64,000 nucleotides of DNA from Luteitalea pratensis (GTDB taxonomy: Bacteria; Acidobacteriota; Vicinamibacteria; Vicinamibacterales; Vicinamibacteraceae), in the NCBI RefSeq assembly GCF_001618865.1, contig NZ_CP015136.1, positions 372,001 to 436,000 on the forward strand. The letters run 5' to 3'. Below the pieces are notes generated by a model that was given only the letters and a program-made list of their open reading frames with translations, did not search any database and was not told the origin of the DNA. Positions 7,664 to 23,858 of the stretch are shown here, piece by piece (within the stretch, counting starts at the first letter, position 1; each line of letters opens with the position of its first letter). A program made the position numbers and the translations under genes.

Positions 7664-7770
7664 GTGCCCTACGATACGGCGTGCCGGCGTCGGGCGGCTC
7701 ACCTGATCGGCCGGGTCCAAGACCTGCAGCTGAGGCACGGTGCGCAACCATCCGCGCCGCCCGGCCGGGC

Positions 7771-9084
7771 TTACGAGAACCAGATCGTGAAACGGGTCGG
7801 GCCGCCCTCGGGGCCGTCCAGCGTGAAGGCGAAGCCATGACGCGTAAGAATCTCCTGAACCAGCGTCAGGCCGATGCCCTGTCCGGACTCCTTGGTGCTG
7901 AAGAAGGGCGTGAACAGGTGCGCGCGTACTTCCGGGGCGAGGCCCGGGCCGCTGTCCTCGATCTGCAGGAACGTCTGGCGGCCATCGCCACCCGTCCGGA
8001 TCACCACCTGGCCGTCGTGATCCGCCGCCTCGATCGCGTTCTTGAGGACGTTGACGAGTGCCTGTTCCATCAGCGTCCGATCGAGCTGCACGATGGGCAC
8101 CGGCACGAGTTCCAGGACGATGGCGACGTGGCGCCTCTCGGCCTCGGCCGCCATCAGCCGCGCCAGGTGGCTGACCAGGTCGCGCAGGTCGCACGGCCCA
8201 AGGCGCGGCTCGGGCAGTCGGACGACGTCGGCAAACGCCTTCATGAAGGCGCCCAACTGCGCGGTGCGGTTCATCACCACGTGCAGCGCCCCTTCCAGGT
8301 CGGCGCGGCTTTCGCCGGGCAGCTGCCCGGCGAAGACGAGGCATGACGTGAGCAGCGAATTGGACGCGGCCACGGAGTTGTTCACCTCGTGCGACAGCAT
8401 GCGGATCAGCTTCTCGTAGGCGGCCTTCTCCGCCTGCCGCAGTTCCTCGGTCAGTTCCTCGATCAGCAGGAACGTGCGGCTGAAACCCCGGTCCATGAAC
8501 GTGCCGCGACTGGCCTTGGCCCTGCGCCCGCCGGGCAAGGTGACCACCGCCGACGACGCGCGCGCGAGCGCGAGGATCACTTCACTGAGCGGCGTGTGCT
8601 GGCCTACCGCGGGCACACCAGGACGGACGTCGGGTCCGAGCAGCGCCGCCGCGGCGGGGTTGAGGAAGTCGACCCGTTCGTCGTGATCCAGGATGACGGC
8701 GCCCGACGGCGACACCTCCAGCAGGCTCTGGAGGAAGTGGTGCTGTTCGCGCACGCGGACCCGCTCGGCGCGCAGCGCGTCGGCCATGCGGTTGTAGATT
8801 TCGATGAGCCGATCGATCTCGGCCTGGCCGGTCGGCCGGAAGCGGGTCGTGTAGTCGCTCTCCTCGAGCAGCTGCGCACTCTCGCGGACGAGGGCATGGG
8901 CGCGCAGCAGGCGGTCGACCAGCCAGGCCCCGACCATCGTCGAGAGCACGAGCCCGCCCTCGATCGCGAGCAGCCCCCACGGTGATTGCCTGGCGAGGCG
9001 CCACGCCAGCACGCCCATCACGACGTGCAGCACGAGCAGGTAGGCGTAGAAGAGGCGCCGCAGCGTCACGTGGGAGGACTCCAT
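7771..9084 (-). CDS. Sensor histidine kinase, NtrY/AtoS-like
   Basis: A 437-residue inner-membrane kinase. Two membrane segments lie within the first 60 residues with almost no periplasmic loop, followed by a HAMP-like linker, a PAS-like domain (about 115-175, with SPSGAVILDHDERVDFLN), the phospho-acceptor His232 in LSHEVNNS and a C-terminal ATPase with N, G1 and G2 boxes (NVLKNAIEAA, DSGPGLA, GQGIGLTLV). It would phosphorylate the NtrC-type regulator encoded 40 nt upstream. It is the last gene of the efflux operon that begins at 15260. The minimal periplasmic loop suggests a membrane or cytoplasmic signal. Confidence 0.93.
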   Translation of the reverse strand: MESSHVTLRRLFYAYLLVLHVVMGVLAWRLARQSPWGLLAIEGGLVLSTMVGAWLVDRLLRAHALVRESAQLLEESDYTTRFRPTGQAEIDRLIEIYNRMADALRAERVRVREQHHFLQSLLEVSPSGAVILDHDERVDFLNPAAAALLGPDVRPGVPAVGQHTPLSEVILALARASSAVVTLPGGRRAKASRGTFMDRGFSRTFLLIEELTEELRQAEKAAYEKLIRMLSHEVNNSVAASNSLLTSCLVFAGQLPGESRADLEGALHVVMNRTAQLGAFMKAFADVVRLPEPRLGPCDLRDLVSHLARLMAAEAERRHVAIVLELVPVPIVQLDRTLMEQALVNVLKNAIEAADHDGQVVIRTGGDGRQTFLQIEDSGPGLAPEVRAHLFTPFFSTKESGQGIGLTLVQEILTRHGFAFTLDGPEGGPTRFTIWFS

Positions 9085-16962: not shown

Positions 16963-17624
16963 GCCGCAAGGTCGCAGTGACGGTCGTGGCCATGGCGAGC
17001 CTGTTGGTATGGACGCATGTCCCGGTCCGTTCGCAGTCCACCCTCGGCATCGTGCGCGGGCGCTTTGCGCTGCCAGCGAGCGGGCTCGACGATCGCCGCC
17101 CCGCGCTGACCGATCCGCGTACGCGCCCGATTGTCCGCCAGCCCCGTGTGGGGGTGGTGTACCTGGAGGTCGCGCCCTCGGCGGCGTTCGAGGAACCGGT
17201 GCGCATGCACGAGCGGATGGACCAGCGCAACGAGACGTTCGTGCCTCACGTCCTCGCCGTCCGCACCGGCACCATCGTCGACTTCCCGAACAGCGACCGC
17301 ATCTATCACAACGTGTTCTCGCTCTCGCCGACGCGGCGCTTCGACCTCGGCCGCTATGCCGTCGGCCACTCGAAATCGATCCGCTTCGATCGGCCCGGCG
17401 TGGTGCGGGTGTTCTGCGACATCCACTCGCACATGAGCGCGTTCATCCTCGTCTTTTCGCACCGCTACTTTGCGGTGACGCAGCCCGACGGCACCTTCCA
17501 GTTGCCCGCGGTGCCTGCCGGCACGTACATGCTGGCCGCCTGGTTCGAGGGCGAGGTCAAGGCCAACCGCCAGATCGTCGTGCGGGCCGGCGAAACGTCA
17601 ATCGCGGATCTGCCGGTGTCGTGA
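16953..17624 (+). CDS. Periplasmic cupredoxin-domain protein with C-terminal Ig-like domain
   Basis: A 223-residue exported protein. After the signal segment (VTVVAMASLLVWTHVPVRSQ), a plastocyanin-like domain carries the likely copper ligands: His in RIYHNVF, then Cys, His and possibly Met in FCDIHSHMSAF. The final 60 residues (QPDGTFQLPAVPAGTYMLAAWFEGE) resemble a carboxypeptidase regulatory-like domain. Such proteins are sometimes annotated as methylamine utilisation proteins, but no dehydrogenase is present here. The start is probably GTG 16953, inside the barrel gene; ATG 16992 is an alternative. Its stop overlaps the kinase start by 1 nt. Confidence 0.83.
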   Translation: MVLSRKVAVTVVAMASLLVWTHVPVRSQSTLGIVRGRFALPASGLDDRRPALTDPRTRPIVRQPRVGVVYLEVAPSAAFEEPVRMHERMDQRNETFVPHVLAVRTGTIVDFPNSDRIYHNVFSLSPTRRFDLGRYAVGHSKSIRFDRPGVVRVFCDIHSHMSAFILVFSHRYFAVTQPDGTFQLPAVPAGTYMLAAWFEGEVKANRQIVVRAGETSIADLPVS

Positions 17625-19378
17625 TGCGTGTGCTCCGCTCGCTGTCGAACCGCCTGTTCCTGGTCGGTGTGCTGCTGTCGATCGCCTCGATCGGCGGCGC
17701 CATGCTCTTTGTCAGCGCCAGGCTGACCCGCGAGCACGACCACGCGATGGCGCAACGCCTCGACGAGACGATCACGCTGGTGGAACGCCAGCGACGCGCG
17801 CTGCTCGACACCTCCACGCGTCTCGCGCGCCTCGTGGCGGACCTGCCGAAGCTGAAAGCGGCGCTCTCCACAGGAGACGCACCGACCGTGTCGCCGATCG
17901 TCGCGAGCTATCGCGACGAGATTGGCGCCGACGTGCTCATCATCAGCGATGCCACCGGGGCGCCCGTCTTCACCGCCGGCGATGCCCGTGGCGACGTGGC
18001 GACGCGACGCCTGGCGATAGACCGCACGGCGCCGCGTCCCACGGCCACGCTCGCAACGATGGCGCATCCGCGCGGCATTCTGCAGTTGGTCAGCGTGCCC
18101 GTCGTGATCGGCGTCGATCCGGTGGAAAACCTCGGGCTGCTGAGCGTCGGCATGCTGCTCGACGACAGGCAGGCGCGTGACCTGCGGGCATCGACAGGCA
18201 GCGAACTCGCCTTCGCGATGGGATCGAACGTGCTCGCGTCGTCCATCGGCCCGGCAGCGGCGTCGGCGCTGGCGCCCGTGCTCGATCGCGACGCCGGGAC
18301 CATACAAATCGGGCGGACCCGCTACGCCTGGCACCGGTACGCGCTCCAGCCCATGGCCGGTGAGCTCGCCGACGGTCGCGGCGAGCCGCGCCTGGTGGTG
18401 CTGCACTCGACCGACGAGGCCGACGCCACGCTCCGCAGCGTGCGGATCGCGCTCGCGGTGATTGCGCTACTGACCGCGTTGACCGCCAGCGTCGCAAGCT
18501 ACGCGGTCGCCCGCACCATCACGAGGCCGCTCTCCGCGCTCACGTCCTCGATGCGCGAGATGGCCCGCACCGGCATGCTGACGCAGCAACCGCCGCGCCC
18601 GCTGACCCGCGTCTGGGACGACGAGGATGTGCGTACGCTGGCAGGAACCTTCGACGCGATGACCCAGGCCATCGCCCGCTTCCAGCAACAGGCGGCCGAC
18701 CGCGATCGACTCACCGCTCTCGGGCGGCTCTCCACCGTGATCGCCCACGAGATTCGCAACCCGCTGATGATCGTGCGCGGAGCCTTGCGCGGCCTGCGCC
18801 AGCAGGTGGATCCGACGGTCGCCGACGCCGCCGTGGATATCGAGGAACAGGTCCAGCGCCTCGACCGCGTGGTGAACGAGGTGCTCGATTTCGCGCGGCC
18901 CGTGCACCTCGAGGTCGCACCAGCATCGTTGCACGCCGTCTGCCGGCAAGCCGTGGCTGCATGCGTGGCGGCCGAGACCGAGCCACCGGTGACGCTCACG
19001 CTCGACGATGCCGCAGATGCGGTCCAGACCGACGCCGATCGTCTCCGCACGGTGCTCGTGAACCTGATCGCGAACGCCCGCGAGGCCGTGCGCGCGGCGG
19101 CGCGTCCGCCCGGCGACGGCCTGGTCACCGTCGGCACGCGACGTGCATCGGGAGCCGTCATGATCGAGGTCGCAGACACAGGCACGGGCATCGAGGCGGC
19201 CATGGCGGGCCAGGTCTTCGAGCCCTACTTCACGACCCGCCGGAAGGGCACCGGCCTCGGGCTCGCCATCGCCCGCAACATCATCGAGGGGCTCGGCGGC
19301 ACGATCGTGCTGACGAGCACGCCCGGCACTGGCACCGTCGTCCGCATCACGCTGCCACAGGAGAACGCGCACCGATGA
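17624..19378 (+). CDS. Sensor histidine kinase of the redox locus
   Basis: A 584-residue membrane kinase with two membrane segments (about 11-32 and 275-297) bounding a large periplasmic dCache-like sensor, then HAMP, the HisKA box (His375 in IAHEIRNPL) and a C-terminal ATPase (NLIANAREAV, DTGTGIE, GTGLGLAIA). It would phosphorylate the regulator encoded next, whose start overlaps its stop (ATGA). Being coupled to the barrel and cupredoxin genes suggests it senses a periplasmic copper, redox or electron-donor signal. That is inference from context. Confidence 0.93.
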   Translation: MRVLRSLSNRLFLVGVLLSIASIGGAMLFVSARLTREHDHAMAQRLDETITLVERQRRALLDTSTRLARLVADLPKLKAALSTGDAPTVSPIVASYRDEIGADVLIISDATGAPVFTAGDARGDVATRRLAIDRTAPRPTATLATMAHPRGILQLVSVPVVIGVDPVENLGLLSVGMLLDDRQARDLRASTGSELAFAMGSNVLASSIGPAAASALAPVLDRDAGTIQIGRTRYAWHRYALQPMAGELADGRGEPRLVVLHSTDEADATLRSVRIALAVIALLTALTASVASYAVARTITRPLSALTSSMREMARTGMLTQQPPRPLTRVWDDEDVRTLAGTFDAMTQAIARFQQQAADRDRLTALGRLSTVIAHEIRNPLMIVRGALRGLRQQVDPTVADAAVDIEEQVQRLDRVVNEVLDFARPVHLEVAPASLHAVCRQAVAACVAAETEPPVTLTLDDAADAVQTDADRLRTVLVNLIANAREAVRAAARPPGDGLVTVGTRRASGAVMIEVADTGTGIEAAMAGQVFEPYFTTRRKGTGLGLAIARNIIEGLGGTIVLTSTPGTGTVVRITLPQENAHR

Positions 19379-20736
19379 CACACGGCACCGTGCTGCTCGT
19401 GGACGACGAGGAGAAGATCCTCAAGACGCTGGGCCGAGCCCTGCGGGAGGACGAACACGAGGTCACCACCACCTCGTCACCACAGGAGGCGCTGCGGCTC
19501 CTCGGCGCGCGACAGTTCGACGTCCTGATCGTCGACTACCTCATGCCAGGACTCACCGGCATGGACGTCGTGCGGGAACTGCAGGCGGCGCTGCCCGAGC
19601 CCGAACGCCCTGGCGTGCTGATGATGACCGCGCATGGCACCGTCCGCAACGCCGTCGAGGCGATGAAACTCGGCGTGCGGGACTACCTGCAGAAGCCCTT
19701 CGACATCGACGAGCTGCTCGTGAGCGTGCGTCGCACCGTCGAGGAGCAGCAGGCCCGCAACGGCCTGCGGTACCTGCTGTCGGAGCAGAAGAACCAGTTC
19801 GGGCAGTACGGCATCGTCGGACGAAGCCGTGCGGTGCAGGATGTGATCGCCCGCGTCGAGCTCGTGGCGCGGAGCCGCAGCACCGTGCTGATCACCGGCG
19901 AGACCGGGACCGGCAAGGAACTCGTCGCGCGCGCGATTCACGATCGCAGTGCGGAACGGGCGCACCCGCTCATTCGCGTCAACTGTGCGGCGTTGCCCGA
20001 AGGCCTGCTGGAATCGGAGCTGTTCGGGCACGTCCGGGGCGCGTTCACGGGTGCGATCAACGCGCGCAAGGGCCGGTTCGCCCTCGCCGACGGCGGTTCG
20101 ATCTTCCTCGACGAGATCTCCACCATCAGCGGCAACGTGCAGGCCAAGTTGCTGCGCGTGCTCCAGGAGCGCGAGTTCGAACCGCTCGGCGCAGAGCGCA
20201 CGCAACGCGTCGACGTGCGCGTGATCGCCGCCACGAATCGCGACCTGCAGGTGCTCGCCTCCGAAGGCAAGTTCCAGAACGACCTCTATTATCGGCTCAA
20301 CGTCATCCCGATCCGCATTCCGCCGCTGCGCGAACGTCGCGAGGACATCCCGATCCTCGTCGAGCATTTCACCCGGCGCATCGCCGCGTCGCTCGGCAAG
20401 CCGGACCTGCGCCTCGACGATGGCGCACTCGATGCGCTCGTGAACTACTCGTGGCCCGGCAACGTCCGCGAGCTCGAGAACACCATGGAACGCGCGGTCG
20501 TCCTCGCGACCGGAACCACGATCGGGCGCGACCTCGTGCTGCTGATGCCTGGCGCATCGGGCGAGGGCACGGGCCTCCCCTCGGGCCGCCTGCACGACAA
20601 CGTGTCGTGGGCCGAGCGCGAGTCGATCGTGAAGGCGCTGCGCGCCGCCGGCGGCATCAAGAAGGACGCGGCCGAGGCGCTCGGGATCAGCCAGCGCGCG
20701 CTCTCGCACTATCTCAACAAGCACGGCATCGACTAG
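19375..20736 (+). CDS. NtrC-family sigma-54 response regulator of the redox locus
   Basis: A 453-residue regulator: receiver domain with acidic residues 10-12 and phospho-acceptor Asp54, AAA+ domain with GETGTGKE, canonical GAFTGA loop and Walker B, and a Fis-type helix-turn-helix at the C-terminus (GIKKDAAEALGISQRALSHYLNKHG). Its stop is followed 49 bp later by the palindrome TTTACG-N5-CGTAAA and then by a sigma-54-type promoter, so the downstream operon is the obvious target. The same half-sites recur at 22973-23009. Confidence 0.95.
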   Translation: MTHGTVLLVDDEEKILKTLGRALREDEHEVTTTSSPQEALRLLGARQFDVLIVDYLMPGLTGMDVVRELQAALPEPERPGVLMMTAHGTVRNAVEAMKLGVRDYLQKPFDIDELLVSVRRTVEEQQARNGLRYLLSEQKNQFGQYGIVGRSRAVQDVIARVELVARSRSTVLITGETGTGKELVARAIHDRSAERAHPLIRVNCAALPEGLLESELFGHVRGAFTGAINARKGRFALADGGSIFLDEISTISGNVQAKLLRVLQEREFEPLGAERTQRVDVRVIAATNRDLQVLASEGKFQNDLYYRLNVIPIRIPPLRERREDIPILVEHFTRRIAASLGKPDLRLDDGALDALVNYSWPGNVRELENTMERAVVLATGTTIGRDLVLLMPGASGEGTGLPSGRLHDNVSWAERESIVKALRAAGGIKKDAAEALGISQRALSHYLNKHGID

Positions 20737-20785: not shown

Positions 20786-20802
20786 TTTACGCAATCCGTA
20801 AA
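20786..20802. promoter_or_regulatory. Putative activator-binding palindrome (site 1)
   Basis: TTTACG-CAATC-CGTAAA is a perfect 6-bp inverted repeat. Its centre lies about 80 bp upstream of the -24 GG of the promoter at 20873, a usual distance for an NtrC-type enhancer site, and it follows the regulator gene directly. The half-site TTACG is shared with 22973-23009. Confidence 0.65.
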
Positions 20803-20872: not shown

Positions 20873-20888
20873 CGGCACGCCGCTTGCC
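20873..20888 (+). promoter_or_regulatory. Sigma-54-type (-24/-12) promoter of the cupredoxin-cytochrome operon
   Basis: CGGCACG-N4-TTGCC matches the sigma-54 consensus at all key positions, with GG (20874-20875) and GC (20886-20887) 10 nt apart. Transcription would start near 20899, giving an 18-nt leader that contains the GGAGGGG ribosome site (20904-20910) for the TTG start at 20917. Confidence 0.75.
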
Positions 20889-20916
20889 CCTCCCTCCCGG
20901 CATGGAGGGGTTTCCA

Positions 20917-21288
20917 TTGTTCAAGACAGAGTGGCGGCGCAGTGCGCTGGCCATGCCGTTCGTGGCGCTGGGCCTGGTCGTATCGCTCGCGGCACAGCAG
21001 GCGCCGCGCGTGATCGAGGTCAAGGCGAAGAAGTACGACTTCGAGCCGTCGACCATCGAAGTGCAGCAAGGAGAGCGGGTGGTGCTGCGCGTGACGTCCA
21101 CCGATCGCCTGCACGGCATCGGCATCAAGAAGTTCGGCGTCAGCAAGGAAGTCCCGAAGGGGGAAACCGTGGACGTGGAGTTCGTCGCGTCGAGCGCAGG
21201 CACCTACCAGGTGCTCTGCACGGAGGACTGCGGCAAGGGGCATGACGACATGGTCGGCACACTGGTGGTGAAAGCGGTGGCGCAGTGA
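20917..21288 (+). CDS. Small periplasmic cupredoxin
   Basis: A 123-residue exported electron carrier or copper protein. The signal segment (SALAMPFVALGLVVSLAAQQ) precedes a single cupredoxin domain (KKYDFEPSTIEVQQGERVVLRVTSTD). Likely ligands are the histidine in LHGIGIKKF and a cysteine and histidine in LCTEDCGKGHDDM, a spacing like that of subunit II/plastocyanin-type sites. TTG at 20917 is preferred because GGAGGGG lies 6 nt upstream and the predicted transcript starts at about 20899; ATG 20902 would overlap that ribosome site. Its stop overlaps the next start (GTGA). Confidence 0.83.
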   Translation: MFKTEWRRSALAMPFVALGLVVSLAAQQAPRVIEVKAKKYDFEPSTIEVQQGERVVLRVTSTDRLHGIGIKKFGVSKEVPKGETVDVEFVASSAGTYQVLCTEDCGKGHDDMVGTLVVKAVAQ

Positions 21289-21749
21289 CGCGCCGGCTTC
21301 TCGCACCGTCCGCGCTTGCGCTGTGCCTCTGCGTCCTCGGCTTCGCCGCCGGCTGCGACGAGAAGCTCTCCGACGTCGCGGGCCCGACGCCCGGCCTCGA
21401 TCCGACGTTCTCGAGCATCCAGGAAAACATCTTCGAGAGCAGCGATTCGTCGGGCCGCGCCGCGTGCATTCAGTGCCACACGCGCCAGGGGGGCCGCAAC
21501 CCGCCGCTCGGACTGTCGCTTGACCATGACGTGGCATACCAGAGCCTCGTGGGCGTGCCGAGTGTCGGCAAGCCTGGCGCCGTTCGCGTCATCCCGAGCG
21601 ACGCCGAGAACAGCTACATGGTGCACAAGCTCGAGGGCCGCAGCGACATCGTCGGCCAGCGCATGCCGCGTACGGCGGGCCCGTTCCTCACCGAAGGCCA
21701 GATCCGCATCATCCGCCGCTGGATCGACCAGGGCGCGCAGAACAACTGA
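21285..21749 (+). CDS. Mono-haem c-type cytochrome-like lipoprotein
   Basis: A 154-residue exported protein with a signal peptide ending at Cys24 (GFAAGC), a probable lipoprotein site. It has one haem-binding motif C61-IQ-C64-H65 and a later NSYMVHKLEG/GQRMPRTAGPFLT segment of the kind that supplies the distal methionine. The last residues (EGQIRIIRRWIDQGAQ) are typical of the cytochrome c-like domains first named in planctomycetes. The start is GTG 21285, coupled to the cupredoxin stop. It could pass electrons to or from the cupredoxin. Confidence 0.85.
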   Translation: MTRRLLAPSALALCLCVLGFAAGCDEKLSDVAGPTPGLDPTFSSIQENIFESSDSSGRAACIQCHTRQGGRNPPLGLSLDHDVAYQSLVGVPSVGKPGAVRVIPSDAENSYMVHKLEGRSDIVGQRMPRTAGPFLTEGQIRIIRRWIDQGAQNN

Positions 21750-21756
21750 GGCGCAC

Positions 21757-22785
21757 ATGAAAACGACCATCATTGCCACTGCGCTCACGTTGATCGCCAT
21801 CGGGACGTTGCCGGCGACGGCGCAGACCGGCCGCACCGACACCGCTACACCCGTGAAGGCGAACGGCAGCGGCGCGTCGTCTGCGGCGCCTACCGACCCG
21901 AAGGCCACCCCGACTCCCAAGGCAACCGCCGACGATCCGAAGGCGACGCCCGATGATCCGAAGGTGGTGGCAGCAGAGCCCGCGACTGTTGCCGACGACC
22001 CGAAGGCGGCCGACGGCGAGGCCGCGGCGGCCGCTCAGGATGACGAAGACGATCCGGATCTCGACGTCAATCTCGCGCAGCCCGACTACACGATCGTCGC
22101 GCTGCCCACCACGCTGCGGCTGCCCAAGGGCAAGTTCGCGTTCCGCGTGACGCACCGCTTCGGACGCCCCCTCGACGACGGCAACTTCGGCGATCTCGCC
22201 GCCGATGCGTTCGGTTTCGACTCCGGCGGGCTGATCGGCCTCGAGGTGCGTTACGGCGTGCTGCGCGGCACGCAGGTCGGCGTGTTGCGCACCAGCGATC
22301 GCACCATCCAGATGTTTGCGCAGCAGCAGATCGTCGGACAGGAGAAGTTCCCGCTGGGCATGGCGCTGCATCTCACCATGGACGGCACGAACAACTTCCA
22401 GGACAGCTACTCGCCCGGGATCGGGCTGGTGGTGTCACGCGAGATCGGCAAGACCGCCGCGGTGTACTTCGAACCGACCTGGGTCAACAACACCAACACC
22501 CTGCCCAGCGAACTCGCCGACGACAACAGCGCGTTCCTGATCGGGCTCGGCGGACGCGTCCGTGTGAGCCGTCGCGCGTATCTCGTGGGCGAGCTCGCGC
22601 CGCGCGTGAGCGGATTCGACCCCGGCTCGACGCACGCGAGTGTCGGCGTGGAAATGCGGGCCGGCGGGCACGCGTTTCAGATCAACTTCTCGCGCGGGCT
22701 CGGCACGACGATGGGGCAGGTGGCCCGGGGCGGGACGGAGGACGACTGGTTCATCGGGTTCAACATCTCGCGCAAGTTCTGGTGA
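21757..22785 (+). CDS. DUF5777-like outer-membrane beta-barrel protein
   Basis: A 342-residue exported protein. Behind a signal peptide (TTIIATALTLIAIGTLPATA) comes a low-complexity linker with repeated DDPKA/DPKAT units (about 40-95), then an antiparallel-strand barrel domain (TIVALPTTLRLPKGKFAFRV... to the C-terminal FNISRKFW). The barrel part resembles the DUF5777 family, whose function is unknown and which I recall lying beside c-type haem lipoproteins. It starts 7 nt after the cytochrome gene and closes the operon. Confidence 0.8.
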   Translation: MKTTIIATALTLIAIGTLPATAQTGRTDTATPVKANGSGASSAAPTDPKATPTPKATADDPKATPDDPKVVAAEPATVADDPKAADGEAAAAAQDDEDDPDLDVNLAQPDYTIVALPTTLRLPKGKFAFRVTHRFGRPLDDGNFGDLAADAFGFDSGGLIGLEVRYGVLRGTQVGVLRTSDRTIQMFAQQQIVGQEKFPLGMALHLTMDGTNNFQDSYSPGIGLVVSREIGKTAAVYFEPTWVNNTNTLPSELADDNSAFLIGLGGRVRVSRRAYLVGELAPRVSGFDPGSTHASVGVEMRAGGHAFQINFSRGLGTTMGQVARGGTEDDWFIGFNISRKFW

Positions 22786-22972
22786 GGTGCAGGTTGGAGT
22801 CGAGGTGGTGACACGCGGCCCGTCGGGTGGGCGCCTGGCGCTGCGGTGCGCCGCCATCGATTCCTGCTGCAGCCGGAAGGGCCCGTGGCGTCCCCGCGTC
22901 ACGGTGCCCTTCCGTCCTGCATTTCGACGGCCGCGACGCCCGCTGTTCGGCGGGGGGCGTGCCGGGTGGCAC

Positions 22973-23009
22973 TTACGGTGCGCGTAACCCCCTTACGGGC
23001 GCCGTAAGG
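22973..23009. promoter_or_regulatory. Paired putative activator-binding palindromes (sites 2 and 3)
   Basis: Site 2 is TTACG-GTGCG-CGTAA (22973-22987). Site 3 is CCTTACGGGCGCCGTAAGG (22991-23009), a perfect 7-bp inverted repeat. Their centres are 20 bp apart, about two helical turns, and site 3 is about 60 bp upstream of the -24 GG of the promoter at 23059. The half-sites equal those of site 1 beside the regulator gene. Confidence 0.65.
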
Positions 23010-23058
23010 ATCTGGCAACCCGCGACCAGCGAATACACGCGGGCTGCACGCGTTTGCG

Positions 23059-23074
23059 CGGCATGGGGTTTGCT
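23059..23074 (+). promoter_or_regulatory. Sigma-54-type (-24/-12) promoter without a downstream gene
   Basis: CGGCATG-N4-TTGCT keeps the invariant GG (23060-23061) and GC (23072-23073) at 10-nt spacing and a full TTGCT box. Transcription would start at about 23085, exactly where a self-complementary segment begins. No protein gene follows on this strand. Confidence 0.65.
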
Positions 23075-23084
23075 CTGAAAAGCG

Positions 23085-23240
23085 ACAGGTCAAGGAGTCG
23101 ACGGGAAGGCCAATGGCGGTGGGTTGGGCAGCCGGCAGCCACGCCGAAACGTCGCGCTCCTTGTTTGGAAGGCGGGAGGCGCCGGGGATATGCCCCGGTG
23201 CTTCTCGCTCCTCCCACTGACTCGTCGCACCTGTCCCGTA
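23085..23240 (+). ncRNA. Candidate sigma-54-dependent structured small RNA
   Basis: From the predicted start the first bases ACAGGT (23085-23090) pair with ACCTGT (23229-23234), and GAGTC (23095-23099) pairs with GACTC (23219-23223). Inside are a hairpin of GGCGGTGG/CCACGCC (23115-23145, one bulge), a 10-bp GC-rich stem (23178-23187 with 23193-23202, loop ATATG) and GGGAG/CTCCC (23174-23178 with 23211-23215, partly competing with it). The only ORF, ATG 23113 to about 23220, is 36 codons and unlike any protein I know. No T-tract terminator is seen, so the 3' end is open. A structure on the opposite strand, as a grpE 3' region, cannot be excluded. Confidence 0.45.
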
Positions 23241-23279
23241 CAAGTCCGACGGCTACGCGAGCTCCCCGATCTTCAGACG

Positions 23280-23858
23280 TCAGCTGTTGGACGCGACCGC
23301 CACGGTCGCCGGGCGCAGCACGTCATCGCCAATCCGGTACCCAGGCGCGGCCACGCCGGCCACGATGCCTTCGCCATACTGGTCGGTGACGGGCACCACC
23401 GTGACGGCCTCGTGCATTTCGGGGTCGAACGGTTCGCCGAGCGGCTCGAGACGCCTGATGCCATAGCCGGCGAGCTTGTGGAGGAATTGCTGGCGCACGA
23501 GCTCGACGCCCTGCGCGAGGTGATCCGCGCCACCGCCGGCACGAGCCGCCGCGAGCGCGCGATCGAGGTTGTCGATCACTTCGAGCAGGTCGGCAAACAC
23601 CGAGCGGCGTGACATCTCGGCGTCGCGGGCGGCGTCCTTGCGCACGCGCAAGCGCATCGCGTCGAACTCGCGCTGTGCTTCGTGCACCAGCGTCACGTAC
23701 TCCTGCAACTGCGCGTCCTTCTCGGCCAGCTTCTGCTCGAGTTCCTGGACGTAGGACGGCTTGTCGAACACCAGCGGCTCACTGTCGCTGGCCGGCGTGT
23801 CCTCGGTGCGCGCCCACCAGCGGCGATCGACGACCTTCACGGGCTCTTGTTCGCTCAT
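23280..23858 (-). CDS. grpE: GrpE nucleotide exchange factor
   Basis: A 192-residue co-chaperone that releases ADP from DnaK. It has the long N-terminal coiled coil (PSYVQELEQKLAEKDAQLQEYVTLVHEAQREFDAMRLR) and the C-terminal beta domain with LEPLGEPFDPEMHEAVTVVP, the DnaK-contacting signature. dnaK and dnaJ are not adjacent; instead clpA and clpS lie upstream on the same strand, making a small protein-quality-control group. The ATG at 23858 follows a 112-bp gap that carries an AT-rich inverted repeat. Confidence 0.94.
   Translation of the reverse strand: MSEQEPVKVVDRRWWARTEDTPASDSEPLVFDKPSYVQELEQKLAEKDAQLQEYVTLVHEAQREFDAMRLRVRKDAARDAEMSRRSVFADLLEVIDNLDRALAAARAGGGADHLAQGVELVRQQFLHKLAGYGIRRLEPLGEPFDPEMHEAVTVVPVTDQYGEGIVAGVAAPGYRIGDDVLRPATVAVASNS

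Follow-up and report, generated by a model that had tools for sequence, protein, structure and literature searches.

A candidate sigma-54-dependent small RNA beside a redox operon of Luteitalea pratensis and the class-wide sites of its putative regulator

The DNA stretch analysed here (the window) spans 64,000 nt, positions 372001-436000 of the 7,480,314-bp single-contig genome of the soil acidobacterium Luteitalea pratensis (G000). It hosts the genes for a sensor histidine kinase and an NtrC-type response regulator, followed by an operon that encodes a cupredoxin-like protein, a small cytochrome-like lipoprotein and a DUF5777 protein (Table 1). Between the DUF5777 gene on the plus strand and the convergent grpE on the minus strand lies a gap (22786-23279), with 494 bp separating the two stop codons. 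This gap contains two palindromes, a promoter of the -24/-12 type and two hairpins. From the comparison of sequences we are fairly confident that the region from 23085 to about 23215 encodes a regulatory RNA about 125-130 nt long, whose transcription would be driven by sigma-54 and the NtrC-type regulator. A preliminary description of the same DNA had proposed a sigma-54-dependent small RNA under the control of the redox-locus regulator, and this proposal gains support from conservation in three members of the genus and from a putative regulon that extends across the class.

Table 1. Features of the small-RNA locus and its surroundings, in window coordinates
Feature	Position	Strand	Basis and remarks
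Sensor histidine kinase (dCache_3, HisKA, HATPase_c)	17009..19378	+	Pfam; relatives precede the regulator in G001 and G003; start codon provisional
NtrC-type response regulator (receiver, sigma-54 interaction domain, HTH_8)	19369..20736	+	Pfam; start placed approximately from homologues
Palindrome TTACG-N5-CGTAA, presumed regulator site of the operon	20787..20801		Motif scan
-24/-12 sigma-54 promoter of the operon, GGCACGCCGCTTGC	20874..20887	+	Sequence
Cupredoxin-like protein	20917..21288	+	Pfam Cupredoxin_1, 6.9e-14
Small CxxCH lipoprotein	21285..21749	+	Weakly like SO2930-family cytochrome (23 bits, far under the cut-off of the model); no Pfam match
DUF5777 (membrane barrel) protein	21757..22785	+	Pfam
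Structured element: hairpin with GGGTGGGCGCC apex, then second hairpin	22790..22921	+	Conserved in G001 and G003
Upstream palindrome 1, TTACG-N5-CGTAA	22973..22987		Exact match
Upstream palindrome 2, TTACG-N5-CGTAA	22993..23007		Exact match
-24/-12 sigma-54 promoter of the small RNA, GGCATGGGGTTTGC, exact GG-N10-GC	23060..23073	+	Sequence
Predicted transcription start	23085	+	12 bases past the C of -12 (spacing rule)
Hairpin SL1 of the small RNA; core 23115-23141	23091..23163	+	Folding, three-species comparison
Hairpin SL2 (17 bp), presumed to end the RNA	23171..23209	+	Folding
grpE, convergent neighbour	23280..23858	-	Pfam

The two palindromes of the gap lie 20 bp apart, centre to centre, as first described, and the same palindrome stands beside the regulator gene, about 50 bp past its stop codon, where G001 and G003, two other members of the genus, carry a looser TTAC-N7-GTAA. 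Allowing up to one mismatch, we counted three palindromes in the window against a mean of 0.22 in 100 shuffled versions, one of which also reached three. The exact palindrome occurs only five times in the 7.48-Mb genome, always 51-72 bp upstream of GGCAY-N5-TTGC: once before the cupredoxin-cytochrome-DUF5777 operon, twice before the small RNA and twice elsewhere. The fourth (near 1,239,444) precedes a gene resembling glucose/sorbosone dehydrogenase (GSDH), and the fifth (near 6,277,106) a frame with one CxxCH that has no Pfam match. The spacing of the small-RNA promoter is exact, as the preliminary description had it, and its distance from palindrome 2 is 52 bp rather than the 60 bp given there. 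By its sequence, the region holds a sigma-54 promoter with upstream activator sites in helical phase, and the transcription start is predicted from the spacing of that promoter. It had also been stated that no protein gene follows, and indeed no recognisable one is found on the plus strand past the promoter: the overlapping plus-strand frames match no Pfam family, and the neighbouring grpE lies on the other strand.

We searched seven genomes of the family with this DNA (E 0.1) and obtained matches in four, the genome of origin included. The informative ones are in G001 (79% identity over 140 bases) and G003 (78% over 76 bases), while those in G002 consist of short repeats in the tail of the query only. 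The stretch at about 23236-23270 of the window (query 287-320) matches dozens of places in G002, and a portion of it resembles a short dispersed repeat. In both G001 and G003 the order of the elements is the same as in the window: kinase, regulator, palindrome, promoter, cupredoxin, cytochrome, DUF5777, structured element, palindrome or palindromes, promoter, hairpin and grpE. The small-RNA promoter of G003 is preceded by one clear palindrome and a degenerate first one (TTACATCCCACGAAA), and in all three species the palindrome nearest to this promoter is 52 bp away. At the same locus of G003 (L038) a minus-strand open frame of about 360 codons (7692-8771), not present in the window or in G001, lies between SL1 and grpE.

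Conservation is unevenly distributed over these elements. The spacer between palindromes and promoter is identical to that of the window at 21 of 50 positions in G001 and 19 of 51 in G003 (0.37-0.42), the promoter at 14 and 13 of 16, and SL1 at 62 of 73 and 58 of 75 (0.77-0.85). Within SL1, the 27 bases of the core are all identical in the three species. The comparison supports the palindromic sites and their phasing on the helix relative to the promoter, as well as their link to the regulator and what appears to be selection on the hairpin sequence.

Overall, palindromes, promoter and hairpin are present in three of the five genomes of the genus (G000, G001 and G003), which are also the three with an orthologue of the regulator. 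The lack of conservation of promoter, palindromes or pairing in relatives had been named as a refutation of the proposal; promoter, palindromes and a hairpin at a fixed distance from the predicted +1 are conserved in these three genomes. We defined regulator orthologues as matches with at least 58% identity, which sets them apart from paralogues with 48-49%. The other two genomes, G002 and G004, are drafts (94 and 95% complete, with G002 split into around 830 contigs). No small RNA was found in them, and at E 1e-120 the only match to the regulator in each was such a 48-49% paralogue. G002 retains cupredoxin, cytochrome, DUF5777 and grpE in this order, with 44 bp between the stop codons of the last two, and lacks both the small RNA and the element at 22790-22921. 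Between the contig end and its cupredoxin match, an upstream stretch of 552 bases, there is no regulator, no TTAC-N7-GTAA and no GGCAY-N5-TTGC, and the whole palindrome-promoter pattern was not found in the assembly. G004 has no DUF5777 match. This distribution suggests that the RNA, its promoter and the 3' element were gained or lost together with the regulator as one event, which is undatable from one such pair. RpoN is present in all five genomes and Hfq in four, with no match in the draft G002, which is also without the RNA.

The plus strand of the small-RNA region folds into stable structures in the window, G001 and G003 (-42.7, -40.0 and -53.5 kcal/mol; z-scores -4.3, -2.1 and -6.2), and the minus strand folds more weakly in all three (-29.5, -28.8 and -32.8 kcal/mol). 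SL1 begins 6 nt past the predicted +1 in every species, and the stem kept in all of them is CAAGGAG...CTCCTTG. SL2 has a similar hairpin in G001. RNAalifold predicted 27 pairs for the three sequences. When this structure was slid along the alignment, it paired 22-51% of the cells compared to 97.5% in place, a difference to be read knowing that a structure derived from its own sequences tends to beat slid ones anyway. When the first 90 nt behind all 82 promoter sites of the class (see below) are ranked by z-score, the small RNA of the window is 4th, that of G001 8th and that of G003 1st. The three loci share a conserved predicted RNA structure and no conserved reading frame.

The preliminary description had further proposed that the first bases of the RNA, ACAGGT at 23085, pair with ACCTGT at 23229. 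Both are present and paired in the minimum-energy fold of the window, and the relatives do not support the pairing. In particular, G001 has no exact counterpart within 260 nt, and those that rely on G-U pairs start only at +154, beyond the hairpins and at a position that falls in grpE. In G003, there are looser counterparts and an exact one at +222, inside the minus-strand open frame. We rejected this closing stem as a conserved feature.

To see the small-RNA promoter in a broader context, we scanned 193 genomes of the class for TTAC-N7-GTAA followed after 45-75 bp by GGCAY-N5-TTGC. The pattern occurs in 56 of them and its reversed control in none. In a sample of 396 genomes of the phylum it was found in 16 of 46 class members and in 10 of 350 others, with 0 and 7 for the reversed control, respectively, so that beyond the class the pattern is about as common as chance would give. 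Among the 82 distinct sites, the spacers, measured from the nearest palindrome, cluster at 50-55 (43 sites), 61-64 (17) and 71-75 bp (16), with six elsewhere; the clusters near 52, 63 and 73 bp are one helical turn apart. Phasing at 10.5 bp is strong (Rayleigh R=0.69) and none of 5000 uniform draws was as high (largest 0.42), although this p-value is too small because the null treats sites of related genomes as independent and the pattern allows 45-75 bp only. The clusters persist among the 76 sites that remain without the loci W, L037 and L038 (R=0.68). A second palindrome, with up to one mismatch, lies within 24 bp upstream at 22 of the 82 sites.

Orthologues of the regulator are found in 85 of the 193 genomes, the best matches in the 84 other than G000 being 60-91% identical. 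Regulator and site co-occur in 48 genomes, the site alone is found in 8, the regulator alone in 37 and neither in 100 (P-value 3.7e-14, Fisher test). In 39 of the 48 genomes with both, the regulator gene is followed on its own strand, at a distance of 16-151 bp, by a site. The sites are linked to, or co-inherited with, a presumably cognate NtrC-type activator.

As for the genes downstream, 48 of the 82 sites precede relatives of the cupredoxin, cytochrome or DUF5777 genes (DUF5777 relatives occur in 97 of the 193 genomes), three are those of the small RNA itself, 30 precede, within 450 nt, a frame of at least 50 codons, and one (L096, 130 bp from the locus end) was not judged. Among the other sites, some precede azurin/plastocyanin-like, YceI, CHRD, GSDH, galactose-oxidase-like, radical-SAM, type III polyketide synthase, DUF503 and other frames. 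When one frame was chosen for each of the 30 sites and scanned in Pfam, 17 matched at E 0.001, some under the curated cut-off and not all of them redox; the 13 unmatched ones are unproven as protein genes, as frames of 50 codons arise by chance in GC-rich DNA and the RNA sites show some too. By these sequence criteria, the two-component regulator seems to govern chiefly periplasmic redox proteins.

Other structured segments were observed behind sites of this kind. At L102 (G007, from another family of the class), the site at 801-882 with the next 80 bases or so consists of a promoter and then a strong hairpin pair (z-score -3.85), which precedes a DUF503 frame starting 145 nt behind the promoter element. 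This pair may be a further non-coding product under the same regulator, or else a terminator. L105 and L107 (G008 and G009) share a near-identical GC-rich hairpin of about 55 nt that follows a regulon promoter and precedes the probable start of a type III polyketide synthase gene, where leader control is possible.

Several observations weigh against the interpretation of the gap as a small-RNA gene. SL2 has no counterpart in G003 in the three-species comparison, and a U-tract terminator was not found in the small-RNA region of the window. Three of the 27 pairs are changed on both sides, a number reached in 149 of 500 column shuffles, with three sequences only. With strict filters the hairpin model (R1) matched 3 of the 193 class genomes and found no relative outside the genus, its best E on 96 fetched loci being 0.21. 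Model R2 likewise matched 3 of the 193 genomes and returned nothing clear on 96 fetched loci (best E 0.28). As far as these searches indicate, the small RNA is known from one genus and three species. Besides this, 8 of the 56 site-bearing genomes have no detected orthologue of the regulator, and an open frame crosses the core in all three species. Finally, long complements of the core occur at 8, 3 and 3 places in G000, G001 and G003 (own locus included) compared to 21, 7 and 11 for the reversed control. With every genome below its control, the search points to no mRNA target. An exact search with 20 bases of the core returned two records of the genome contig collection, LNDN01000018.1 and one Mycobacterium, the latter taken as a chance match, and none among viral contigs.

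Three other explanations of the conserved hairpin have to be considered. It may be a mere terminator, or structural DNA between convergent operons, with the promoter an idle copy of that of the operon. Both intergenic elements are indeed strong hairpins between convergent genes, and the U tract of a terminator was not found in the window. However, the distance from nearest palindrome to promoter and that from +1 to hairpin are constant in all three species, and the core is identical in sequence, though a terminator needs only pairing. This makes such an origin of the hairpin improbable. Alternatively, the promoter might produce the mRNA of a small protein from 23113 (MAVGWAAGS...), the frame that crosses the core. 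Its start codon is ATG in the window and G001 but TTG in G003, and AVGWAAGS is common to all; its lengths of 35, 54 and 45 aa have no common end and the sequences diverge past approximately residue 11. In addition, the identity of all 27 core bases, third codon positions included, fits an RNA better than codons, G003 carries two extra bases just upstream of the core, and neither the frame of G001 nor the overlapping frames of the window match any Pfam family. We consider a protein product very unlikely. Equally unlikely is a plus-strand transcript that acts in cis only, either antisense to grpE-clp at its 3' end or serving as a roadblock that separates the convergent genes, because even though grpE ends 70 bp past SL2 on the opposite strand, G003 keeps SL1, the promoter and a palindrome despite the long minus-strand frame between SL1 and grpE.

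If the gap does host a regulatory RNA, the sensor kinase would signal to the NtrC-type regulator, which would bind the two palindromes on one face of the helix and activate the sigma-54 polymerase at the small-RNA promoter. The same regulator would drive the cupredoxin-cytochrome-DUF5777 operon from its own site and promoter, together with two further genes elsewhere in the genome, and operon mRNA and small RNA would be produced together. Binding of the regulator, production of the RNA, its end at SL2 and its action in trans are what we infer from the arrangement of these elements. There is an even chance that the small RNA acts in trans, as a post-transcriptional control of mRNAs; the SL1 module, with Hfq or another RNA-binding protein, would then lower mRNAs that are unwanted while periplasmic electron-transfer proteins are made. 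The second most likely mode, which we put forward tentatively, is that SL1 titrates a protein, and other modes are less likely still. In the core both arms of the stem are invariant. A simple seed for base pairing is rarely constrained in this way, and the pattern would be compatible with a protein partner or with a recognition surface formed by folding.

The structured element behind the DUF5777 gene is perhaps a distant sister of the small-RNA hairpin. The two share AGGT..GGAGTCG, the apex GGGT(T)GGGC(A)GCC and the closing CG..TTCCT, and nine cross-comparisons between them gave z-scores of 1.6-5.7, four of which exceeded all 1000 shuffles. Against this kinship, the model of the small RNA scores the element at 17.4 bits in the window (E 0.04, rank 4), 17.4 bits in G001 (E 0.02) and 11.0 bits in G003 (E 0.99), close to background. 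A more speculative extension, which we regard as rather unlikely, is that one regulator makes two related RNAs, the first carried by an mRNA and the second by itself, with a single partner that both use or compete for, in a two-RNA circuit tied to periplasmic electron transfer. At the other end of the operon, the start of the cupredoxin gene at TTG 20917 was inferred from the GGAGGGG resembling a ribosome-binding site before it. An alternative ATG at 20902 lies a few bases past the predicted +1 of the operon, and the TTG is likelier.

No Rfam family (4227 searched, presumably including those of CrcZ, Pxr and Qrr) matches the window at its gathering score. A permissive scan of 22780-23290 returned ten matches, all far under their cut-offs, the lowest E-value being that of C4 antisense RNA (20.1 bits compared to 45). 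This agrees with the earlier suggestion that the small RNA is new. Most likely it is a new example of a type of RNA already known from CrcZ and Pxr. The Qrr RNAs of Vibrio, which occur in several copies and have quorum-sensing targets, are comparable in that sigma-54 and the NtrC-family protein LuxO control them, whereas the present RNA has no Rfam match. CrcZ acts through multiple copies of an A-rich motif to which Hfq/Crc binds; no such copies are seen in the present sequence. The cited passages describe CrcZ as a sigma-54-transcribed regulatory RNA that is directly activated by the response regulator CbrB and encoded downstream of cbrAB (PMC8871633). On this description, CrcZ and CrcY of Pseudomonas resemble the present RNA as sigma-54 RNAs under a response regulator and near two-component genes. 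The half-sites of CbrB, given as TGTTAC/GTAACA on one face of the helix in the relevant part of PMC6296734, also resemble the TTAC/GTAA of the present palindromes. Pxr of Myxococcus xanthus appears in the cited text as a small multi-hairpin RNA, apparently with its own sigma-54 promoter, downstream of the sigma-54-dependent response regulator gene nla19 (PMC5568312), and these traits are also predicted here. It differs, according to the same passages, in its neighbour, a predicted NADH dehydrogenase gene, and in its developmental role, and the present RNA matches neither it nor CrcZ in Rfam.

In one collection of open-access papers (subscription journals and preprints were outside the scope), no paper contains both the genus name and 'small RNA'. 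A search on sigma-54 with Acidobacteria and small RNA or cupredoxin gave nothing on such an RNA among the matches listed, and DUF5777 is named in no paper of this collection. The locus offers a concrete candidate small-RNA gene with a predicted start, promoter and activator. With the class-wide binding motif, the regulon of a two-component system that has apparently received no study can be read from sequence, and the presence of DUF5777 in this putative redox regulon is a first clue to its function. If our interpretation is true, a regulator whose other targets are electron-transfer proteins with copper and haem would have the small RNA as one of its outputs.
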